Assembly (NCBI RefSeq): GCF_030824455.1
Contig: NZ_JAVBXR010000010.1
Coordinates: forward strand, 1-64,000
Origin: Desulfobulbus sp.
Lineage (GTDB): Bacteria; Desulfobacterota; Desulfobulbia; Desulfobulbales; Desulfobulbaceae
Length of the DNA: 64,000 bases
Direction of reading: 5' to 3'
The notes beneath the pieces are model-generated. The model saw only the letters and a program-made list of their open reading frames with translations. It was not told the origin of the DNA and did not search any database. The first letter of the stretch is position 1; every line of letters starts with the position of its first letter. This document shows positions 3,017-10,465 of this stretch, in pieces. The position numbers and the translations under genes were made by a program.

Positions 3017-3690
3017 GCAGCCGCCATGGTGCGCAGATAGTTGCTTACTCTTTTCTTGGTCGCCACCTTGGGCAGGCAAAGCGGCAGGAACGAACAGCTC
3101 TCGCAGCGGGCGTCATAGCGGGGCGGCGGCGTTACTCCTGCCGCCAGCATGTCGTGTGCCGCGTCGGCCGTCCGAGCGACCGTCTCCCGCAAGGCCGGAT
3201 CGAAAACAACGGCTGTCCGTCGCTTCTTTTCGCCGTAATACAAGGCTCCTTCCGGCACAACGCAACCCAGCATTTCTTCCAGGCAGATGGCTTGGGCGCA
3301 GAGTTGCACCCGGTCAGAATCGTCTTTTTTAGGCCGCCCACGCTTGTATTCCACCGGCAGCGGCCGCCACAAACCGCCTTCGCAAAGATGAAACTCGACA
3401 ATGTCGGCCCGGCCGGCCAACCCCAGCCGCAAGGAACGGATGGGCACGTCGAATTCCACCCGCAGCGTGCGCCGCGACTCGCGGCCGCTGGTGTGCACCC
3501 GCTCGTGGAGCACCCGCCCCTCGGCGGTCAGCCGGTTTTCCAGCCATTGCTGTTCGATGTGGATCAGGGCGCACTGGCGCGGACAGAACAGGTAATGTTG
3601 CAGGGCGGAGATCATCACCAGATCGTCCTCGTCGTACAACCCCGGCAGCGACGATTGCTGGCCGGATTGTTCCAGGATGCGCTCAGTCAT
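3013..3690 (-). CDS. cas4: CRISPR-associated exonuclease Cas4
   Basis: This is a 225-residue RecB-family nuclease with an iron-sulfur cluster. In type I-C it trims prespacers and selects the PAM and orientation before Cas1-Cas2 integration. Visible motifs are one N-terminal cysteine (Cys36, LFCPRQCALIH), GRADIVEF with catalytic Asp96, VEYKRG with Glu114 and Lys116, and three C-terminal cysteines (196, 199, 205) that complete the cluster site. The start at 3690 follows a GGAGG about 8 bases upstream and overlaps the end of the RhuM/Fic gene by 8 bases. An upstream in-frame start at 3726 looks less likely. Confidence 0.95.
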   Translation of the reverse strand: MTERILEQSGQQSSLPGLYDEDDLVMISALQHYLFCPRQCALIHIEQQWLENRLTAEGRVLHERVHTSGRESRRTLRVEFDVPIRSLRLGLAGRADIVEFHLCEGGLWRPLPVEYKRGRPKKDDSDRVQLCAQAICLEEMLGCVVPEGALYYGEKKRRTAVVFDPALRETVARTADAAHDMLAAGVTPPPRYDARCESCSFLPLCLPKVATKKRVSNYLRTMAAA

Positions 3691-4723
3691 GCGCCCTTCC
3701 TCCGTTGGGCAGTGTGGATTCGCCAAGCAGATGAATGATCAGACGGATGAGCACATCTTTCTGGCTCGGGTCAGAGGCGGCGACCAGCAGCGCCAGGGCC
3801 ACCAGCCCCTTGTTGTCGAAGCGGACCGTATCAACAAGACTGCTTTCCTGGAGGAAAAGAAGAAAGAGAAAGGAACCGATGCGCTTGTTGCCGTCGCTGA
3901 AGGGATGATCCTTGATCACGAAATAGAGCAGGTGGGCCGCTTTTTCCTCGATGCTCGGGTAGAGGTCCTCACCGCCAAAGGTTTGGTGGATGGCGCCGAG
4001 GATGCCAGCCAGGCTCTCGCCACGCTCGCGGCCAAAGAGATCGGTGACCTCGCCCCTGGCGGCCAGATCATCACGCAGACAGGCAATGCCCCGGCGCACC
4101 ACGGCCAGATCAAAACCCACCGACTCCCGCCGGGTGAGCCCAGATGGCAGGGGCAGCCGGTCTTCGTCATATTGGAGCAGCAATTGCCAGCTCAGGCCGT
4201 AACGCCTCACCAGCTCCACCACAGCTAACCCGGTTGCATCCGCCAGTTGATGCTGCTCCAAGGTTGTGGCCAGCAAATCGAGCACCCCGCGCAACTCAGC
4301 CACCCCCTGTTCCGCCAGCTGCCGCTGATTGAGGGCATAGCCCTTGATCAGATACTCCTTGAGTACCGATGAGGCCCAGATGCGGAACTGGGTGCCGCGT
4401 TTGGAGTTGACCCGATAGCCGACGGCAATGATAACGTCCAGATTGTAAAAATTGGTTTGGTAGGTTTTGCCATCCGCGGCAGTCTGTGCAAATTTTGCAC
4501 AGACTGCCTCTCTGGCTAACTCTTCTGATTTGAAAACATTGTTAATATGCTTGGTTACGACACTGCGCTCCGTCTGAAAAAGAAAAGCCATCTGCGCTTG
4601 CGTTAACCAGACGGTTTCATTCCTCAGGTGGACATCCAGCCTTATTTGCCCGTCATCGGCCTGATAGAGGACGATGGCGCTGTGATCAGAAGGCGAGGTT
4701 TGCTGTTCTTGTGAGAACTCCAT
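3683..4723 (-). CDS. RhuM-like / Fic-Doc domain protein inside the cas operon
   Basis: The protein has 346 residues. Residues ~15-130 resemble the RhuM virulence-protein family (VWLTQAQMAFLFQTERSVV, then a segment around NLDVIIAVGYRVNSKRGTQF). The C-terminal half carries a Fic/Doc active-site motif, HPFSDGNKRIG, at residues 273-283. Fic proteins transfer AMP or phosphate to hydroxyl side chains, and Doc is a toxin. The gene lies between cas7 and cas4, on the same strand, 40 bases after the former and overlapping the latter, so it should be co-transcribed. It is not a standard type I-C gene. I see no clear inhibitory-helix motif and no separate antitoxin. Its role here is unknown. Confidence 0.85.
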   Translation of the reverse strand: MEFSQEQQTSPSDHSAIVLYQADDGQIRLDVHLRNETVWLTQAQMAFLFQTERSVVTKHINNVFKSEELAREAVCAKFAQTAADGKTYQTNFYNLDVIIAVGYRVNSKRGTQFRIWASSVLKEYLIKGYALNQRQLAEQGVAELRGVLDLLATTLEQHQLADATGLAVVELVRRYGLSWQLLLQYDEDRLPLPSGLTRRESVGFDLAVVRRGIACLRDDLAARGEVTDLFGRERGESLAGILGAIHQTFGGEDLYPSIEEKAAHLLYFVIKDHPFSDGNKRIGSFLFLLFLQESSLVDTVRFDNKGLVALALLVAASDPSQKDVLIRLIIHLLGESTLPNGGRAHD

Positions 4724-4763: not shown

Positions 4764-5630
4764 TCATAATTTTATATCCAACTCCACTCCCTTCGGGACA
4801 TCGCCTACGGTTACGGAGTAATCCTTGAACGAACGGGCCGGACCGGTTGAGCCTTCCGCGCGCTGGATGTCGATCAAGTCAAACAGCTTGTGCGCCAGGG
4901 CATTACCCATCTTGTTCTCATGTTTGAACACAAAGAGCTTACGGCTGCTCATCAATCCACGGGCGGCGGAACGGTCATGCTCGAACATGTTGATGAGGGC
5001 ATCCCAAAGAAGTTCCAAATCATCTTCGGAAAAACCGGTTTTATCCGCCAGGGCGGCAGAAACAAATCCATGTGCTACATAGAGGCCATACGGCACGATA
5101 TGCTTACGCCCCATGGTGCGTTCTTTTTCCAAATCTTTCTCATTGGTCACCGCCATTCTGGTAATGCTGATTTCCTGGGGCATGATACTTTCAACGCTTT
5201 TGGCAAAGGCCAACTGTATCGGCCCTCGCACCTGTCCGCAGTTGACTTCCGTGGTCATCACCGCGCCAAAAGCGCGAATATCGTAAAAATTAGCGCACAT
5301 CCAGCCAGTGACCTTCTGTGCATCTTCAATGTTTTTGGGCAATTTCTTGGCTTCCGATTTCAATTCAAAGGCTTTGTACGCCTCCTCGTTGGTACGATTT
5401 AAGACTGCCTTTTCCTGAATATAAATTTTGAATCCTTCAGCGCCGTCCTTGGCTAACGCCACATGATTTCTGATCTTGCGTTTTAAACAGACATCCGTCA
5501 CCAGGCCATGCCCGGTTTCCGGGTCGACGCGAGGAGTGTTGCCAGCATCCGGGTCACCATTGGGATTGCCGTTTTCCACATCAAAAAGCAGCACAAATTC
5601 ATAACGATTGGCAATTGCAGTCATGGTCAA
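4764..5630 (-). CDS. cas7: Type I-C Cascade backbone protein Cas7 (Csd2)
   Basis: At 288 residues this is the usual size for Csd2/Cas7c, the RAMP protein that polymerises along the crRNA to form the Cascade backbone. The N-terminal block with FDVENGNPNGDPDAGNTPRV is the family hallmark, and the central FYDIRAFGAVM and the IQLAFAKS region also fit. The start at 5630 overlaps the cas8 stop by 4 bases. After it come 40 non-coding bases and the RhuM/Fic gene, where cas4 would normally follow directly. Confidence 0.96.
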   Translation of the reverse strand: MTMTAIANRYEFVLLFDVENGNPNGDPDAGNTPRVDPETGHGLVTDVCLKRKIRNHVALAKDGAEGFKIYIQEKAVLNRTNEEAYKAFELKSEAKKLPKNIEDAQKVTGWMCANFYDIRAFGAVMTTEVNCGQVRGPIQLAFAKSVESIMPQEISITRMAVTNEKDLEKERTMGRKHIVPYGLYVAHGFVSAALADKTGFSEDDLELLWDALINMFEHDRSAARGLMSSRKLFVFKHENKMGNALAHKLFDLIDIQRAEGSTGPARSFKDYSVTVGDVPKGVELDIKL

Positions 5631-7387
5631 TTCTCCTCGGTCGTGTTGGCTGTGGTGTTTTTACTAGTATAGAAATCCTTCATCCGTTGGTAATAGCCGA
5701 TCATGAACAGTCCCTGGTCCTCCAGCGACATTGTTGGCGGAAAGTGAGCAAGATGCGCTACCGAATCCTGGATGGATTTTTCTAAATTGATGGCCCAGCC
5801 GGTCTTCGCGGGGTCTTTGCGCAATTTTGCGATGTGGTTGGCGGCATTTTTCAGCAACATGGGAAAGACCCTGGCTGGCGTTGCAGGCGCCGAAGCGAAA
5901 AAACGATCTTTCATAGTGGCTGTCGCTCCTGGAATTGCATCTGCCTGGGCTTTCTCGAGAACGGCAAACAAGCCTCCGAGCAAATAAGGGACCTCTTTCC
6001 TGCTGGGGTCGTAATACATAGAAATCTCCATTTGTTTATTACGGACGAGAAAGGCTTTCAGCAAAGCCGCCCGAAAATATCCGACTTCACGTTCGGCTCG
6101 AATACGACCTAAGACCGCCGCAAGCAAACTCTGCGGATACAAGCCGCCGTTCAGCATGGCCTTGGTCATGCCGCCCGCAAGCACGGGCAAGACATTCTCA
6201 CTCTTTCCAAGGGTTGCAGTCTGGCAGAGCAACCGCCAAAGAGGAGGAAACTCCGGTTCGCTGTCGTACTGGCGCACTATCTCCAGGTGGCGAAAATGCT
6301 CCCCGATATTCTTCAAAAAGTTTCCCACGGTGCTTGCCATCCAGAACCGGATGGATAAACGTGAAGCATTGGGGGCAAGCCCCAAAATATAAAAACGGAC
6401 GGACTCGTCCAATTCGGGGATAATATCGACTGCTCGTTTACCGGATCGAAGGCTGGTCAGCAGGTGCAATATTTTCCCGGCAGTTTGCTGGTCATCATCG
6501 GCCGCTACCGGCTTAACGCGGCTTTCATCCGGAGCAAACAGGTCGGCAAACAGCTCTTCGGCAACACTGCGACATTCTGCCCAGAACACAATAGTCGTAT
6601 CGCCAACCACTACCTTTTGGCGACTATCTATGGCCAACAATGTATTTAACGCTGTGACATAGTTAAAAGTTGCCTTTTGGCTGATAGGTGCATTCGCCCC
6701 CTGTTCCTTGCCATAGGATTCAAAGGATTGTTTATTAAACGAAACAATATCCGCCCCGCCTTGTTGAGAACCGCGCACGCCTTTAATGGAAGGATGCAAA
6801 CGGGCAAGAGGTTGCTCGTCTTCCCCTGAGACGAGACATTGCCCAATTGTGGCAGCCTCACGTTGCCCTAGACACTGTTCCCATGCCTTACGCGCTGCCG
6901 CACGGTCATGGATGAACCCCGGCGTACCACTCAAACGGAAAACCAAGTTTGCACCGCAGATGTCCACCCAATTCGGCAGGGTGGTTATTGTCCGGAAATC
7001 GTGGTCATAAAAGAAGATAATTGCCTTGAGGCCAGGATCTTCAGCCGCGCAGAAAGTGCGCACCTGCTGGACAAAGGCCTTGTGACATTTATCCGTTCGC
7101 TCCTGCTTGCCCTTGTCATCCAGCCCTAGGACATAGCTGGTCGAATCCCAAAGAAAATTTGGCTTAATTCCATTGGCTTTCTTCTCGGCTGCCGGCACGA
7201 CCATTTTACGGGGCCGCAGTTGCTTGCCCTCCTGCAACCGAAGGTCTTCCACGTTCAACAATTCCCCATTGTCACCAAGGACAAGAGCAAACGAGATATT
7301 CTCCACACTGGAGCCATAGGCGGGGATTGCAGTATCAGGCTCCGCCGCTTTGCGTTCATAATAACGGTTCAATTCCTGAAGAATCAT
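5627..7387 (-). CDS. cas8c: Type I-C Cascade large subunit Cas8c (Csd1)
   Basis: This 586-residue large subunit recognises the PAM and recruits Cas3. In type I-C an internal start in this gene commonly yields a small Cas11-like subunit. The N-terminus MILQELNRYYER and the conserved WDSTSYVLGLDDKGK block fit Csd1. I chose the ATG at 7387 over an upstream in-frame codon because it gives the ATGA overlap with cas5 (7384-7387) and matches the family start. I did not identify a specific internal Cas11 start. Confidence 0.95.
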   Translation of the reverse strand: MILQELNRYYERKAAEPDTAIPAYGSSVENISFALVLGDNGELLNVEDLRLQEGKQLRPRKMVVPAAEKKANGIKPNFLWDSTSYVLGLDDKGKQERTDKCHKAFVQQVRTFCAAEDPGLKAIIFFYDHDFRTITTLPNWVDICGANLVFRLSGTPGFIHDRAAARKAWEQCLGQREAATIGQCLVSGEDEQPLARLHPSIKGVRGSQQGGADIVSFNKQSFESYGKEQGANAPISQKATFNYVTALNTLLAIDSRQKVVVGDTTIVFWAECRSVAEELFADLFAPDESRVKPVAADDDQQTAGKILHLLTSLRSGKRAVDIIPELDESVRFYILGLAPNASRLSIRFWMASTVGNFLKNIGEHFRHLEIVRQYDSEPEFPPLWRLLCQTATLGKSENVLPVLAGGMTKAMLNGGLYPQSLLAAVLGRIRAEREVGYFRAALLKAFLVRNKQMEISMYYDPSRKEVPYLLGGLFAVLEKAQADAIPGATATMKDRFFASAPATPARVFPMLLKNAANHIAKLRKDPAKTGWAINLEKSIQDSVAHLAHFPPTMSLEDQGLFMIGYYQRMKDFYTSKNTTANTTEEN

Positions 7388-8049
7388 GACCGCACCTCCG
7401 ACGACCGGGGTGCAGGCGGGGTGATGATGCCGTCCTGCATGGTGGCCTTGAAAAAGAGTGGTTTCATGCCGTTGGCAAAATCGATATCCAGCAGCATGTA
7501 TCCCAACTCTTTTGTTTCTCCCTTGTAGCAAGAAATCGGTAACTCGCCCTCCAACAGCTCAAAAAAAGAAGGAAATTCACGACAGCCGAAACAAGGCTGG
7601 TGGAAAAATTGCCCGGTGCGAGCTCGCCGGTTAAAAATATCAAGATGTTTGCCCTCATTCTCCCCCGGCCCCGCTTTCTCTGTCAGTTCAAAATGGGCTT
7701 CAATCACATAGTCCACTTTGCGAAGCAAAGTTGTGGCTCGCTGTTGCCGGTTATCCCCCTCATCCACCAAATAAAACAGCGATTTTTTATCGCGCATCAC
7801 CGTTGTCGGATTGGGCTTGGGAATTTTTGACTTCACCTCATTACGACGAACATTGTCGAAACGGATAGGGTTGAGCACATGAATCCTGTCCACCACCCAA
7901 CGAATGGCCGGCTTCCAGTGGATTGCCTCCAGAATCCCCCGCGCCGCCGAGGGAGTCATAACATCATACGACACCCGTTCCACTTTCATCTCCGGCCTGG
8001 AGAAACAAGCGTAGTCACCCCAGACACGAAGTTTAACTCCATACCCCAT
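7384..8049 (-). CDS. cas5c: Cas5c pre-crRNA endoribonuclease
   Basis: At 221 residues this is the catalytic Cas5 variant (Cas5d/Dvulg) that replaces Cas6 in type I-C. It cuts the repeat 3' of the stem-loop, leaving an 11-nt 5' handle, and stays bound to it. Supporting segments are VWGDYACFSRPEMKVERVSY at the N-terminus and PSAARGILEAIHWKP. The ATG at 8049 has AAGGAGG seven bases upstream. A GTG at 8055 is also in frame but sits too close to that Shine-Dalgarno. A solitary repeat-like RNA element lies directly upstream, between this gene and cas3. Confidence 0.95.
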   Translation of the reverse strand: MGYGVKLRVWGDYACFSRPEMKVERVSYDVMTPSAARGILEAIHWKPAIRWVVDRIHVLNPIRFDNVRRNEVKSKIPKPNPTTVMRDKKSLFYLVDEGDNRQQRATTLLRKVDYVIEAHFELTEKAGPGENEGKHLDIFNRRARTGQFFHQPCFGCREFPSFFELLEGELPISCYKGETKELGYMLLDIDFANGMKPLFFKATMQDGIITPPAPRSSEVRS

Positions 8050-8078
8050 AGGCACACCTCCTTACGTAGAGGATTCCT

Positions 8079-8207
8079 GGAGCGTTACATCCAAGCAACG
8101 CTCCAATAACAAACGACAAATTGCACCAGCTATTATTTCAATCCGCATCCCCGCGCGGGGGATGACCACAAACTGCACCTTCGCCCAAGGGGTACCCTCC
8201 CGGTCCT
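8079..8207 (-). ncRNA. Solitary CRISPR-repeat-like RNA between cas3 and cas5c
   Basis: Bases 8135-8166 align over all 32 positions with the array repeat, with seven substitutions. In transcribed (minus) orientation, two stem pairs have changed together: position 4/20 from G-C to A-T and 5/19 from C-G to T-A. One change is in the loop, one is at the first base of the 11-nt handle and one at its last base. The 7-bp hairpin and the GGATTGAAA core are kept. A 30-nt spacer-like segment (8105-8134) follows, then a perfect 8-bp hairpin (8079-8104, GGAGCGTT/AACGCTCC). The layout is repeat, guide-length segment, hairpin, inside the cas operon. Cas5c processing is inferred, not shown. Confidence 0.65.
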
Positions 8208-8214
8208 TGATGGG

Positions 8215-8244
8215 AGCATACATATGGCCGATGGTCGCCGTCAA
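8215..8244 (-). promoter_or_regulatory. Possible sigma-70 promoter for the solitary repeat RNA
   Basis: On the minus strand, TTGACG (8239-8244) is followed after 18 bases by TATGCT (8215-8220), placing a start near 8207. It lies after the cas3 stop and points through the solitary repeat into cas5c. The match is five of six at -35 and four of six at -10. It would allow expression independent of cas3, but this is only a sequence match. Confidence 0.4.
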
Positions 8245-8281
8245 TTTTTTTTCAATAGTTGGTGTATTTTTTCTAAATTTT

Positions 8282-10465
8282 CTATCTGCAAAAAAACTCA
8301 GGATCCCAAAGCTCGGCCATATCTTCTCGAAATCCCAAGCGTGCATCGTAGGCGGCGGCATTCAACATGATCGGGAAAACATCACGAACCATCTCAATCA
8401 CCCCTTTTTGTTGCAAGCGAAACAGCACGTTGCTCCGTACCACCACCGCATAGCGTTGCAGTTTTCGCCCTGTCGCCAGGGGAAACTGCGCGTGTCGCAA
8501 TTGCTCAACCAATCGTTGCACCTCGTCTCTGTCTTCGGGGAGCCCCGGCATAATCACGCCAACGCCTTCATCTTCAATGAGGCGGAAATCCTTGGCCACC
8601 TCCTGAAACGGCACGATCAGTTCTGAATGCAGGCAGGGATTCGCTCGCTTGACGATGTCTTTTGCATCCAAACTTTCCACGTCGTACAGCAATTCGAAAT
8701 AACGTTGCATCGGAACGAGTTCCAAGCAGTCACCCGAGGGAAATAATCGCAGAGTTTCCTGGGCACGCGAGATGCGACGCCGTAACCAAGGCATGGCGGG
8801 CAGTTCTTCCGGTTCATACACATACACCAAGCCAAAATCCGACAGCCCTTCACGATTGCACCGCCCGGCTGCCTGGGCAATGGAATCGAGGCCTGCCATG
8901 GCCCGGTAAACAACCGGGAAGTCGAGATCGACACCGGCCTCAACCAACGAGGTAGAGATCACCCGGCACGGCAACCCATCCGCAAGCCGCTGCCTGATGA
9001 CATCAAGCACACGCAACCTATGCACCGGGTACATGTTCGTTGACAGGTGGAATGTGCCCTCAGTTTCTCTCATAATTGCAACTGCCTGTTGCGCCTGTTT
9101 TTTGGTCGAGACAACGCAAAGCACCTGGGGGTGGCCGTCGAGCTGCCGAGCGAGTTCCTCGGTGGTCAATTTGCCGATGAATTCGACACGAACCCTTTTG
9201 AGCTCCGCAAACAATTGATCAGGATCATCAACAATCTCTTTGGTCTCAGGGAGTTGTAAACGCTTCAGGTTCGTATCATCCAACGCTGGCTGAGTGGCGG
9301 TGCATAACACGACCGTGCACCGGTAATGAGCGACCAATTCGCGCAACGCGAGGAGGCAAGGTTGAAGAAATTCGGTAGGAATCGCCTGGGCCTCGTCAAG
9401 GACGATCACGCTCCCGGCTATATTGTGCAGTTTGCGACAACGTGACGGTTTATTGCTATATAATGACTCGAAAAATTGCACATTGGTGGTCACCACCACC
9501 GGCGCGGCCCAGTTCTCGGTCGCAAGTCCCCGCCACTTGTTGTACATGACCGCATCGTCATCCTCCCGAGCATGGTAATTGCAATGGTGCTCAAGCACGT
9601 TGGCCTCACCAAGGGCCTGCCGGAACACTTCGGCGTTTTGCTCGATGATTGAAGTAAAGGGGATGGCATAAATTACCCGTGAAAGGCCGTGCGTTTCCGC
9701 ATGCTCCAAGGCAAAGGCCAGCGAAGAAAGTGTTTTTCCGCCGCCAGTCGGTACAGTTAACGAGTAGAATCCTTGGGCTTCTCTCGCTTGCTCAATACAC
9801 CGCGCCAAAACCCTCTGCCGCGCAGCGTTCACCTTTCCCAGTTCTGCCGATGCCTGTTTTTGAGAAATGAAGGACTGTAAAGAACTCCTCAGATTACCAA
9901 AATTATTCTGCTGTAATGCCCGCCGCAGTGCTGATTTGTCAGGGTTACAAAAGGCTTCGGTGTCGAGGAAATCGGCGTCCACCAGACAGGAGAACAGCAT
10001 GCGGGTAAAAAAAGCCAGATTGAACATGGACCATTCTCTTTCTAATTGAAAAGGAAAGAGTAATGGTTTGGCACCGCCGAGTTCCGGCAATATTTCGGTA
10101 TTTGTAATTTCTTTGCGTAATCGATGGTGCAGCTGTCCTTCCTGAACACCGCCATCGGGCAATCCACCATGATGTCCACAGATCACATACGCGAGTAAAA
10201 AACCTAATTTACCGTCACGCATTTGGGCCAACTGAGCCCCGAAGGTGGCATGGTCAACGCGGTTTGCTCTACCTTCCAACCGCGCGATGAAATCTGGGCA
10301 CGCCTTGCCGGCATCGTGCAATTCCCCCACGCATCGTCCCCATTGCCCTGCCATGAATGCGGCGGCAAATTGCTCGGACAGTTTCCCCACGTTGTGCAAA
10401 TGTTCATCAAGTGGTTGCCAGTCGGATTTATCTGCCTTTTCAGTTGAATGGGCGTAATATTCCAT
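8282..10465 (-). CDS. cas3: CRISPR-associated helicase-nuclease Cas3
   Basis: This 727-residue HD-nuclease/DExD helicase fusion has the standard type I-C length. It is recruited by Cascade to unwind and degrade target DNA. The N-terminal HD domain shows HLHNVGKLSEQF and ELHDAGK (His50-Asp51) and a later GHHGG. The helicase has Walker A TGGGKTLSS and motif II DEAQ within VIVLDEAQAIP. Motif VI-like QAAGRCNREG is near residue 560. It is the first cas gene after the WYL regulator, with a 110-bp gap that should hold the operon promoter, and its Shine-Dalgarno is weak. Confidence 0.97.
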   Translation of the reverse strand: MEYYAHSTEKADKSDWQPLDEHLHNVGKLSEQFAAAFMAGQWGRCVGELHDAGKACPDFIARLEGRANRVDHATFGAQLAQMRDGKLGFLLAYVICGHHGGLPDGGVQEGQLHHRLRKEITNTEILPELGGAKPLLFPFQLEREWSMFNLAFFTRMLFSCLVDADFLDTEAFCNPDKSALRRALQQNNFGNLRSSLQSFISQKQASAELGKVNAARQRVLARCIEQAREAQGFYSLTVPTGGGKTLSSLAFALEHAETHGLSRVIYAIPFTSIIEQNAEVFRQALGEANVLEHHCNYHAREDDDAVMYNKWRGLATENWAAPVVVTTNVQFFESLYSNKPSRCRKLHNIAGSVIVLDEAQAIPTEFLQPCLLALRELVAHYRCTVVLCTATQPALDDTNLKRLQLPETKEIVDDPDQLFAELKRVRVEFIGKLTTEELARQLDGHPQVLCVVSTKKQAQQAVAIMRETEGTFHLSTNMYPVHRLRVLDVIRQRLADGLPCRVISTSLVEAGVDLDFPVVYRAMAGLDSIAQAAGRCNREGLSDFGLVYVYEPEELPAMPWLRRRISRAQETLRLFPSGDCLELVPMQRYFELLYDVESLDAKDIVKRANPCLHSELIVPFQEVAKDFRLIEDEGVGVIMPGLPEDRDEVQRLVEQLRHAQFPLATGRKLQRYAVVVRSNVLFRLQQKGVIEMVRDVFPIMLNAAAYDARLGFREDMAELWDPEFFCR

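Follow-up and report, generated by a model that had tools for sequence, protein, structure and literature searches.

A solitary CRISPR-like guide in a Desulfobulbus type I-C operon and its predicted regulatory target between cas3 and cas5c

The gap between cas3 and cas5c in a type I-C CRISPR operon of Desulfobulbus sp. holds an element that, judged from sequence, is likely to be a one-guide, crRNA-like gene. The type I-C Cascade would use it to regulate a promoter in that gap and so autorepress cas5c, cas8c and cas7 in the manner of a cas-regulating RNA (CreR). Transcription, processing, binding and repression are all inferred; through this guide the CRISPR complex probably switches the targeted promoter down. 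A Cas5c-processed guide of the CreR/CreA kind in type I-C was what the preliminary description of this DNA had envisaged, and that idea is now supported by a target, its PAM, the layout in relatives and covariation both within the stem and between guide and target. The window is the whole stretch of DNA that was analysed (64,000 nucleotides), and all coordinates refer to it.

The solitary element and its place in the cas operon

The operon runs along the − strand in the order cas3, a 226-nt gap, cas5c, cas8c, cas7, a RhuM-Fic gene, cas4 and cas1, followed by the array. cas3 (8282–10465, −; Pfam DEAD, 7e-14, and Cas3-like_C_2, 1.6e-10) ends ~11 nt upstream of the guide's target. The first gene downstream of the solitary element is cas5c (7384–8055, −; Pfam Cas_Cas5d, 8.4e-45), whose product is presumed to be both the processing enzyme and the handle-binding subunit and is 87–88% identical to Cas5c of Desulfobulbus rhabdoformis and D. 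elongatus, its closest named relatives. Downstream of the targeted promoter there follow cas8c (5627–7531, −; Pfam Cas_Csd1, 3.6e-174), for the large Cascade subunit, and cas7 (4764–5630, −; Pfam Cas_Cas7, 1.1e-109), for the Cascade backbone. The array (74–1512, −) has 22 repeats on the strand shared with the element; its distal end would be incomplete, given that the perfect inverted repeat at the contig start (1–58), which contains array half-repeats, is probably an assembly artefact. In ~19 genomes, its own included, a homologue of the RhuM-Fic domain gene (3683–4723, −; between cas7 and cas4) shares a contig with a Cas5 gene at a distance of no more than ~7 kb. Several of these copies are broken or partial, and linkage of the gene to cas genes seems to recur in Desulfobulbales.

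The 32-base repeat-like sequence first noticed between cas3 and cas5c, on the array strand, is borne out: psiR1 (8166–8135, −; GTCATCCCCCGCGCGGGGATGCGGATTGAAAT) is identical to the array repeat (GTCGCCCCCCGCACGGGGGCGTGGATTGAAAC) at 25/32 positions, and four of its seven differences are, as had been described, two compensating pairs (G-C to A-T and C-G to T-A). It is the sole non-array copy of the repeat in the 4.03-Mb assembly, in which a degenerate pattern recovered the 22 array copies and no reversed controls; whole-genome searches throughout this work were pattern-based only. A functional CRISPR array would call for at least two direct repeats with array-like spacers, and the element, with its single repeat, does not meet this definition. 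The last 11 nt of psiR1 (8135–8145, −; CGGATTGAAAT) are the expected 5′ handle, and the succession of repeat-like hairpin, intact handle and guide is that required of a crRNA-like unit of the CreR type; two bases of the handle region that differ from the array repeat (T22C and C32T) count against reading it as a regulatory guide. The 30-nt guide, psiS (8105–8134, −), starts with AATAGCTGGTGCAATTT (5′-AATAGCTGGTGCAATTTGTCG...). It is followed by the equivalent of psiR2 (8079–8104, −), a degenerate second repeat with a predicted 3′ hairpin; the perfect 8-bp hairpin originally proposed here gives way to a 10-pair stem, one pair of which is G-U. At the psiR2 position gamma- and betaproteobacterial relatives still have a repeat-like sequence (GTC-stem-GTGGATT). 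The whole of 8079–8166 is predicted to fold into the repeat hairpin and the 10-pair 3′ hairpin (z-score −2.6), and a search of Rfam gave no matches.

A protein-coding frame in this place, named beforehand as an observation that would refute a guide, was also considered. A 99-aa open frame (8062–8361) does cross the gap and the element, but that it accounts for the sequence is scarcely credible: significant homology ends with its cas3 overlap, and residues 33–99 have no significant match in ~140 loci.

The seven differences from the array repeat could also belong to a stray or decaying repeat without function, whether an array remnant or a repeat mobilised into the operon. Random decay had been thought unlikely from the outset, and comparison with relatives leaves practically nothing in its favour. 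Across 20 loci the six stem pairs are 99.2% paired, with both sides changing in five of the six, and the covariation score of 0.854 compares with 0.324 for shuffled alignments (0/500) and at most 0.27 for slid registers. The test of stem covariation suggested in the preliminary description thus gives a strong signal, to which the conserved position of the element, its layout of target and promoter, and a match within the gap far above that in shuffled gaps can be added. The procedure is biased towards pairing: the 5′ arm was anchored on a conserved GTC, the best-pairing anchor was taken if there were several, and loci with fewer than four pairs were excluded. About six loci (for example L073, L086, L097 and L122) have a good handle without such a stem. 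In L122 an alternative is possible 50–110 nt upstream of cas5, where pairing of the psiR1 3′ arm (CCCGGGGCG) to the 5′ arm of the downstream psiR2 (CGCCCCGGG) would enclose handle and guide and replace the local hairpin; L102, like L073, L086 and L097, likewise has a good handle and no local stem.

Target and promoter in the same gap

No convincing target had been seen for the guide by eye. One exists just beyond the coordinates then considered, at 8251–8270 (+; TTC-AATAGTTGGTGTATTTT), in the same cas3–cas5c gap, and consists of a TTC PAM (8251–8253) and a protospacer (8254–8270). Guide nt 1–5 and 7–11 match it perfectly and nt 13 and 15–17 match as well; with every sixth base left out, guide and target agree at 14 of 15 positions as far as nt 17, nt 14 being the mismatch. 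A search of the genome with a 5′ TTC PAM that allowed seed-only matches, as had been advised, returned the TTC-plus-seed pattern TTCAATAGNTGGTG once in 4.03 Mb, at this target, with no second exact match in the genome; within the 64-kb window every other site scores below 14/15. When every 17-mer of the gap was compared with every TTC-flanked site in it, with the repeat ignored, the guide–target pair was the best of all at 14/15, and the shuffle maximum was 12. TTC is reported as the PAM of a Xanthomonas type I-C system (PMC8406640).

The pairing has a register. In type I Cascade every sixth base of the guide is flipped out and stays unpaired; lower matching at nt 6, 12 and 18 is a known mark of its R-loop, and the guide–target match would thus record Cascade binding, for which there are no binding data. 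In 23 loci the match rate is 0.96–1.0 at guide nt 1–5, 0.22 at nt 6, 0.87–1.0 at nt 7–11, 0.13 at nt 12, 0.70–0.83 at nt 13–17 and 0.17 at nt 18, and it is near background from ~nt 20. The sites in this profile were selected on their score over nt 1–11, so the high values there are partly a product of selection and it is nt 12–19 that provide independent evidence. Pairing that ends at ~nt 17–20 fits, by inference, binding without destruction. The archaeal CreA rule, pairing at nt 1–5 and 7–11 next to a TTC PAM (PMC8501985), is identical to what is found here.

The promoter beside the target, TTGACG-18-TATGCT, is that of the preliminary description (8244–8215, −; −35 box 8244–8239, −10 box 8220–8215). 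It is the only sigma70-like match in 8040–8420, where 0.4 would be expected by chance. A 9/12 match with an 18-nt spacer counts against it, and it convinces mainly because many relatives have a TTGAC-type −35 box in the equivalent position, shortly downstream of the target PAM. The target lies upstream of the −35 box, with 6 nt between the end of the PAM and the box. We found no terminator-like site on the − strand in 8040–8420, and from this absence we infer that the promoter also drives cas5c.

Guides, targets and small ORFs in related loci

Type I-C loci were gathered by Cas5c similarity, and the prevalence figures are not a census. Among 128 non-redundant cas3–cas5 junctions the gap is shorter than 100 nt in 88 and longer in 40. 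Comparison of this gap in relatives, along the lines proposed at the outset as a check, revealed homologous elements in at least 27 of the 128 junctions, all of them within the 40 with long gaps; an element was recognised by its copy of a handle-type repeat ahead of cas5. The laboratory-grown Desulfobulbus elongatus DSM 2908 (L033) is one of the carriers. Every one of these 27 has its own target in the gap, and as the seed sequences differ between loci, guide and target have changed together. In 21 of 23 loci no more than ~20 nt separate the target from the cas3 stop. For 26 elements the best 10-position seed score at TTC sites in the gap is 10/10 in 15, 9 in four and 8 in three, and a score of at least 9 was reached by only 5/646 swapped guides and 28/5200 shuffled seeds. 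One low score, in L102, arises where the target spans the cas3 stop; another, in L003, goes with a TTT PAM, and the guide scores 10/10 and 14/15 at the TTT site. Two other low scores belong to a psiR2 copy in L083 and to a second, upstream copy in L006. Fresh loci also carry the predicted target, with seed scores of 8/10 in L117 and L118, 10/10 in L122 and 9/10 in L155.

These pairs bear on the possibility that the element is an mRNA-processing site, at which Cas5c would cut psiR1, and perhaps the second hairpin too, in a cas3–cas5c transcript, splitting cas3 mRNA from effector mRNA and limiting Cas5c, with the guide merely incidental. The element is indeed co-directional with cas5c, lies directly upstream of it and covaries as a repeat hairpin. 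Processing of this kind leaves the unique target, the PAM, the six-base periodicity and the guide–target covariation in 27/128 junctions unexplained, however, and we consider it improbable as the explanation of the element; such cutting may accompany the main mechanism as a by-product.

A recognisable element is absent from some long-gap loci (for example L049, L068, L078, L089, L091, L098 and L108) and from Nitratidesulfovibrio vulgaris DP4, whose gap is 13 nt; the solved type I-C Cascade comes from its relative Desulfovibrio vulgaris (PMC7684278). The gap of Desulfobulbus rhabdoformis (L004/L032) has lost the guide repeat and the target and keeps a psiR2-like 3′ hairpin upstream of cas5 (GGAGGGG...CCCCTCC), a remnant that suggests recent loss of the element in this close relative. 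A strong hairpin (GGATGTGGCC...GGCCACATCC) followed by AAAGGAGG lies between target and guide in L117 and L118. In L117 a 17-codon mini-ORF (start ATGACAAGGCGGCGT) comes next, and its clusters of arginine codons recall CreT of the RNA type. The 631-nt gap of L122 contains a 16-codon ORF led by a Shine-Dalgarno (SD) site and a 54-aa cysteine-rich, zinc-ribbon-like ORF ahead of the guide.

Most relatives have an SD site and a small ORF between the targeted promoter and the guide. In eight Desulfobacterota loci this ORF is exactly 24 codons long, with E/D-P-P at the C-terminus of its product (the '...EPP' family). Divergence within this family at codon positions 1, 2 and 3 is 0.449, 0.210 and 0.564 (pN/pS 0.5), lowest at position 2 and highest at position 3, and on this pattern the ORF is probably translated. 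The ORFs of other proteobacteria are 28–62 codons long, and most of them encode a hydrophobic segment at the C-terminus. None of these small ORFs in relatives has a credible match in Pfam or NCBIfam; they are candidates for CreT, their toxicity being untested.

A hidden RNA toxin is accordingly the main rival to the CreR-like reading. The element would then be a CreTA addiction module, whose guide is an antitoxin (CreA) repressing a toxin transcript (CreT) from the same promoter and in which loss of Cascade frees the toxin, here a mini-ORF or a short RNA encoded in the 84-nt stretch from the target to psiR1. An SD-led small ORF occupies exactly that place in most relatives, and the 24-aa family diverges as codons do. 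Known CreT genes are, moreover, sometimes only 4–11 codons long, and a short RNA toxin in the 84-nt interval cannot be excluded. The window itself, however, has no SD-led ATG ORF in this interval, where the best SD-like start is that of a 16-codon TTG ORF that runs into psiR1. L043 and plasmid pTM3 of Tistrella mobilis (L155) keep guide and target with no room for an ORF, which indicates that the guide can be kept without a toxin. We regard a toxin–antitoxin function in the window as unlikely, though not excluded.

Known guide RNAs and the proposed regulation

CreR and CreA guides had been cited as known from types I-B and V-A. Both have indeed been reported, and the published range is wider: CreR is described for types I-B, I-E and V-A (PMC13131331, PMC12737573), and CreTA for type I-B archaea (PMC8501985, PMC9458426) and type I-F in Acinetobacter (PMC10097628). 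As with CreR, one crRNA-like guide lies among the cas genes of the window and is complementary, over a limited stretch beside a TTC PAM, to a promoter of the cas locus. No recognisable toxin gene is attached, although an RNA toxin cannot be excluded, and that this promoter drives cas5c is inferred. Unlike CreR, the element belongs to type I-C and is presumably processed by Cas5c rather than Cas6, its target is an internal promoter between cas3 and cas5c, its complementarity follows a six-base register to ~nt 17, and close relatives of the window have a small ORF under the same promoter. With CreTA it shares the psiR1–psiS–psiR2 layout, degenerate repeats, a target in the same intergenic region and, as in type I-B, pairing of nt 1–5 and 7–11 with a TTC-flanked site at a promoter; the location in the gap after cas3 is that of the I-F CreTA. 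It departs from CreTA in subtype and in the absence of a recognisable toxin ORF in this genome, and the candidate toxin ORFs of relatives are new small-protein families co-directional with the guide.

In CrePA a protein toxin, CreP, usually with a KilA-N domain, is repressed by a CreA guide (reviewed in PMC12737573). Repression of a promoter by Cascade and a crRNA-like guide, inferred here, would be common to both, but no KilA-N gene lies under the targeted promoter in the window, where the first recognisable gene downstream is cas5c. The Racr anti-CRISPRs of phages are solitary-repeat RNAs (PMC10651486) and resemble the element as solitary repeat units outside an array. In contrast to Racr, the element sits in a host cas operon rather than a virus or mobile element, and such elements are found again in the cas operons of several bacterial classes; its guide is conserved and has a matching target in the genome. 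Our search of the literature on CreTA, CreR and CrePA with type I-C found no relevant report of a CreA/CreR-type guide in this subtype, although a type I-C prediction in the supplements of the original papers cannot be excluded.

We favor CreR-like control as the best reading because the window lacks a recognisable toxin ORF, cas5c is the first gene that can be recognised after the promoter, and no terminator was found on that strand. In this model, RNA initiated at the promoter 8244–8215, or reading through from cas3, would be cut by Cas5c at the base of psiR1 to yield the 11-nt handle, the 30-nt guide and the 3′ hairpin. The guide matches a single TTC-flanked genomic site at all positions to nt 17 bar 14 and the multiples of six, as seen in the sequence. 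Since pairing stops at ~nt 17–20, Cas3 would not be triggered, and bound Cascade would abut the −35 box and block the promoter. As this promoter is inferred to feed both the guide and cas5c–cas8c–cas7, free Cascade would repress its own synthesis. Competition of crRNAs for Cascade, or an anti-CRISPR that inactivates it, would release the loop, as has been described for CreR; the physiological trigger is inferred.

A broader proposal, to which we give somewhat less than even credence, is that type I-C operons of several bacterial classes carry an undescribed family of Cascade-repressed modules in which a Cas5c-processed guide controls new small-protein toxins, the 24-aa '...EPP' proteins in Desulfobacterota and, in other proteobacteria, short proteins whose C-terminal segment is hydrophobic. 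The window would then represent the last stage of such a module, its toxin gone and its guide retained to autoregulate the effector genes.

Type I-C ranks among the most common CRISPR subtypes, and the junctions with an element, at least 27 of the 128 sampled, already form a set for comparative work. The small ORFs are so far no more than candidate toxins, and reporters of the targeted promoter in type I-C systems could sense anti-CRISPRs. The guide–target pairs display Cascade's six-base pairing register directly in genome sequence and offer a natural measure of how much pairing is tolerated without triggering destruction.
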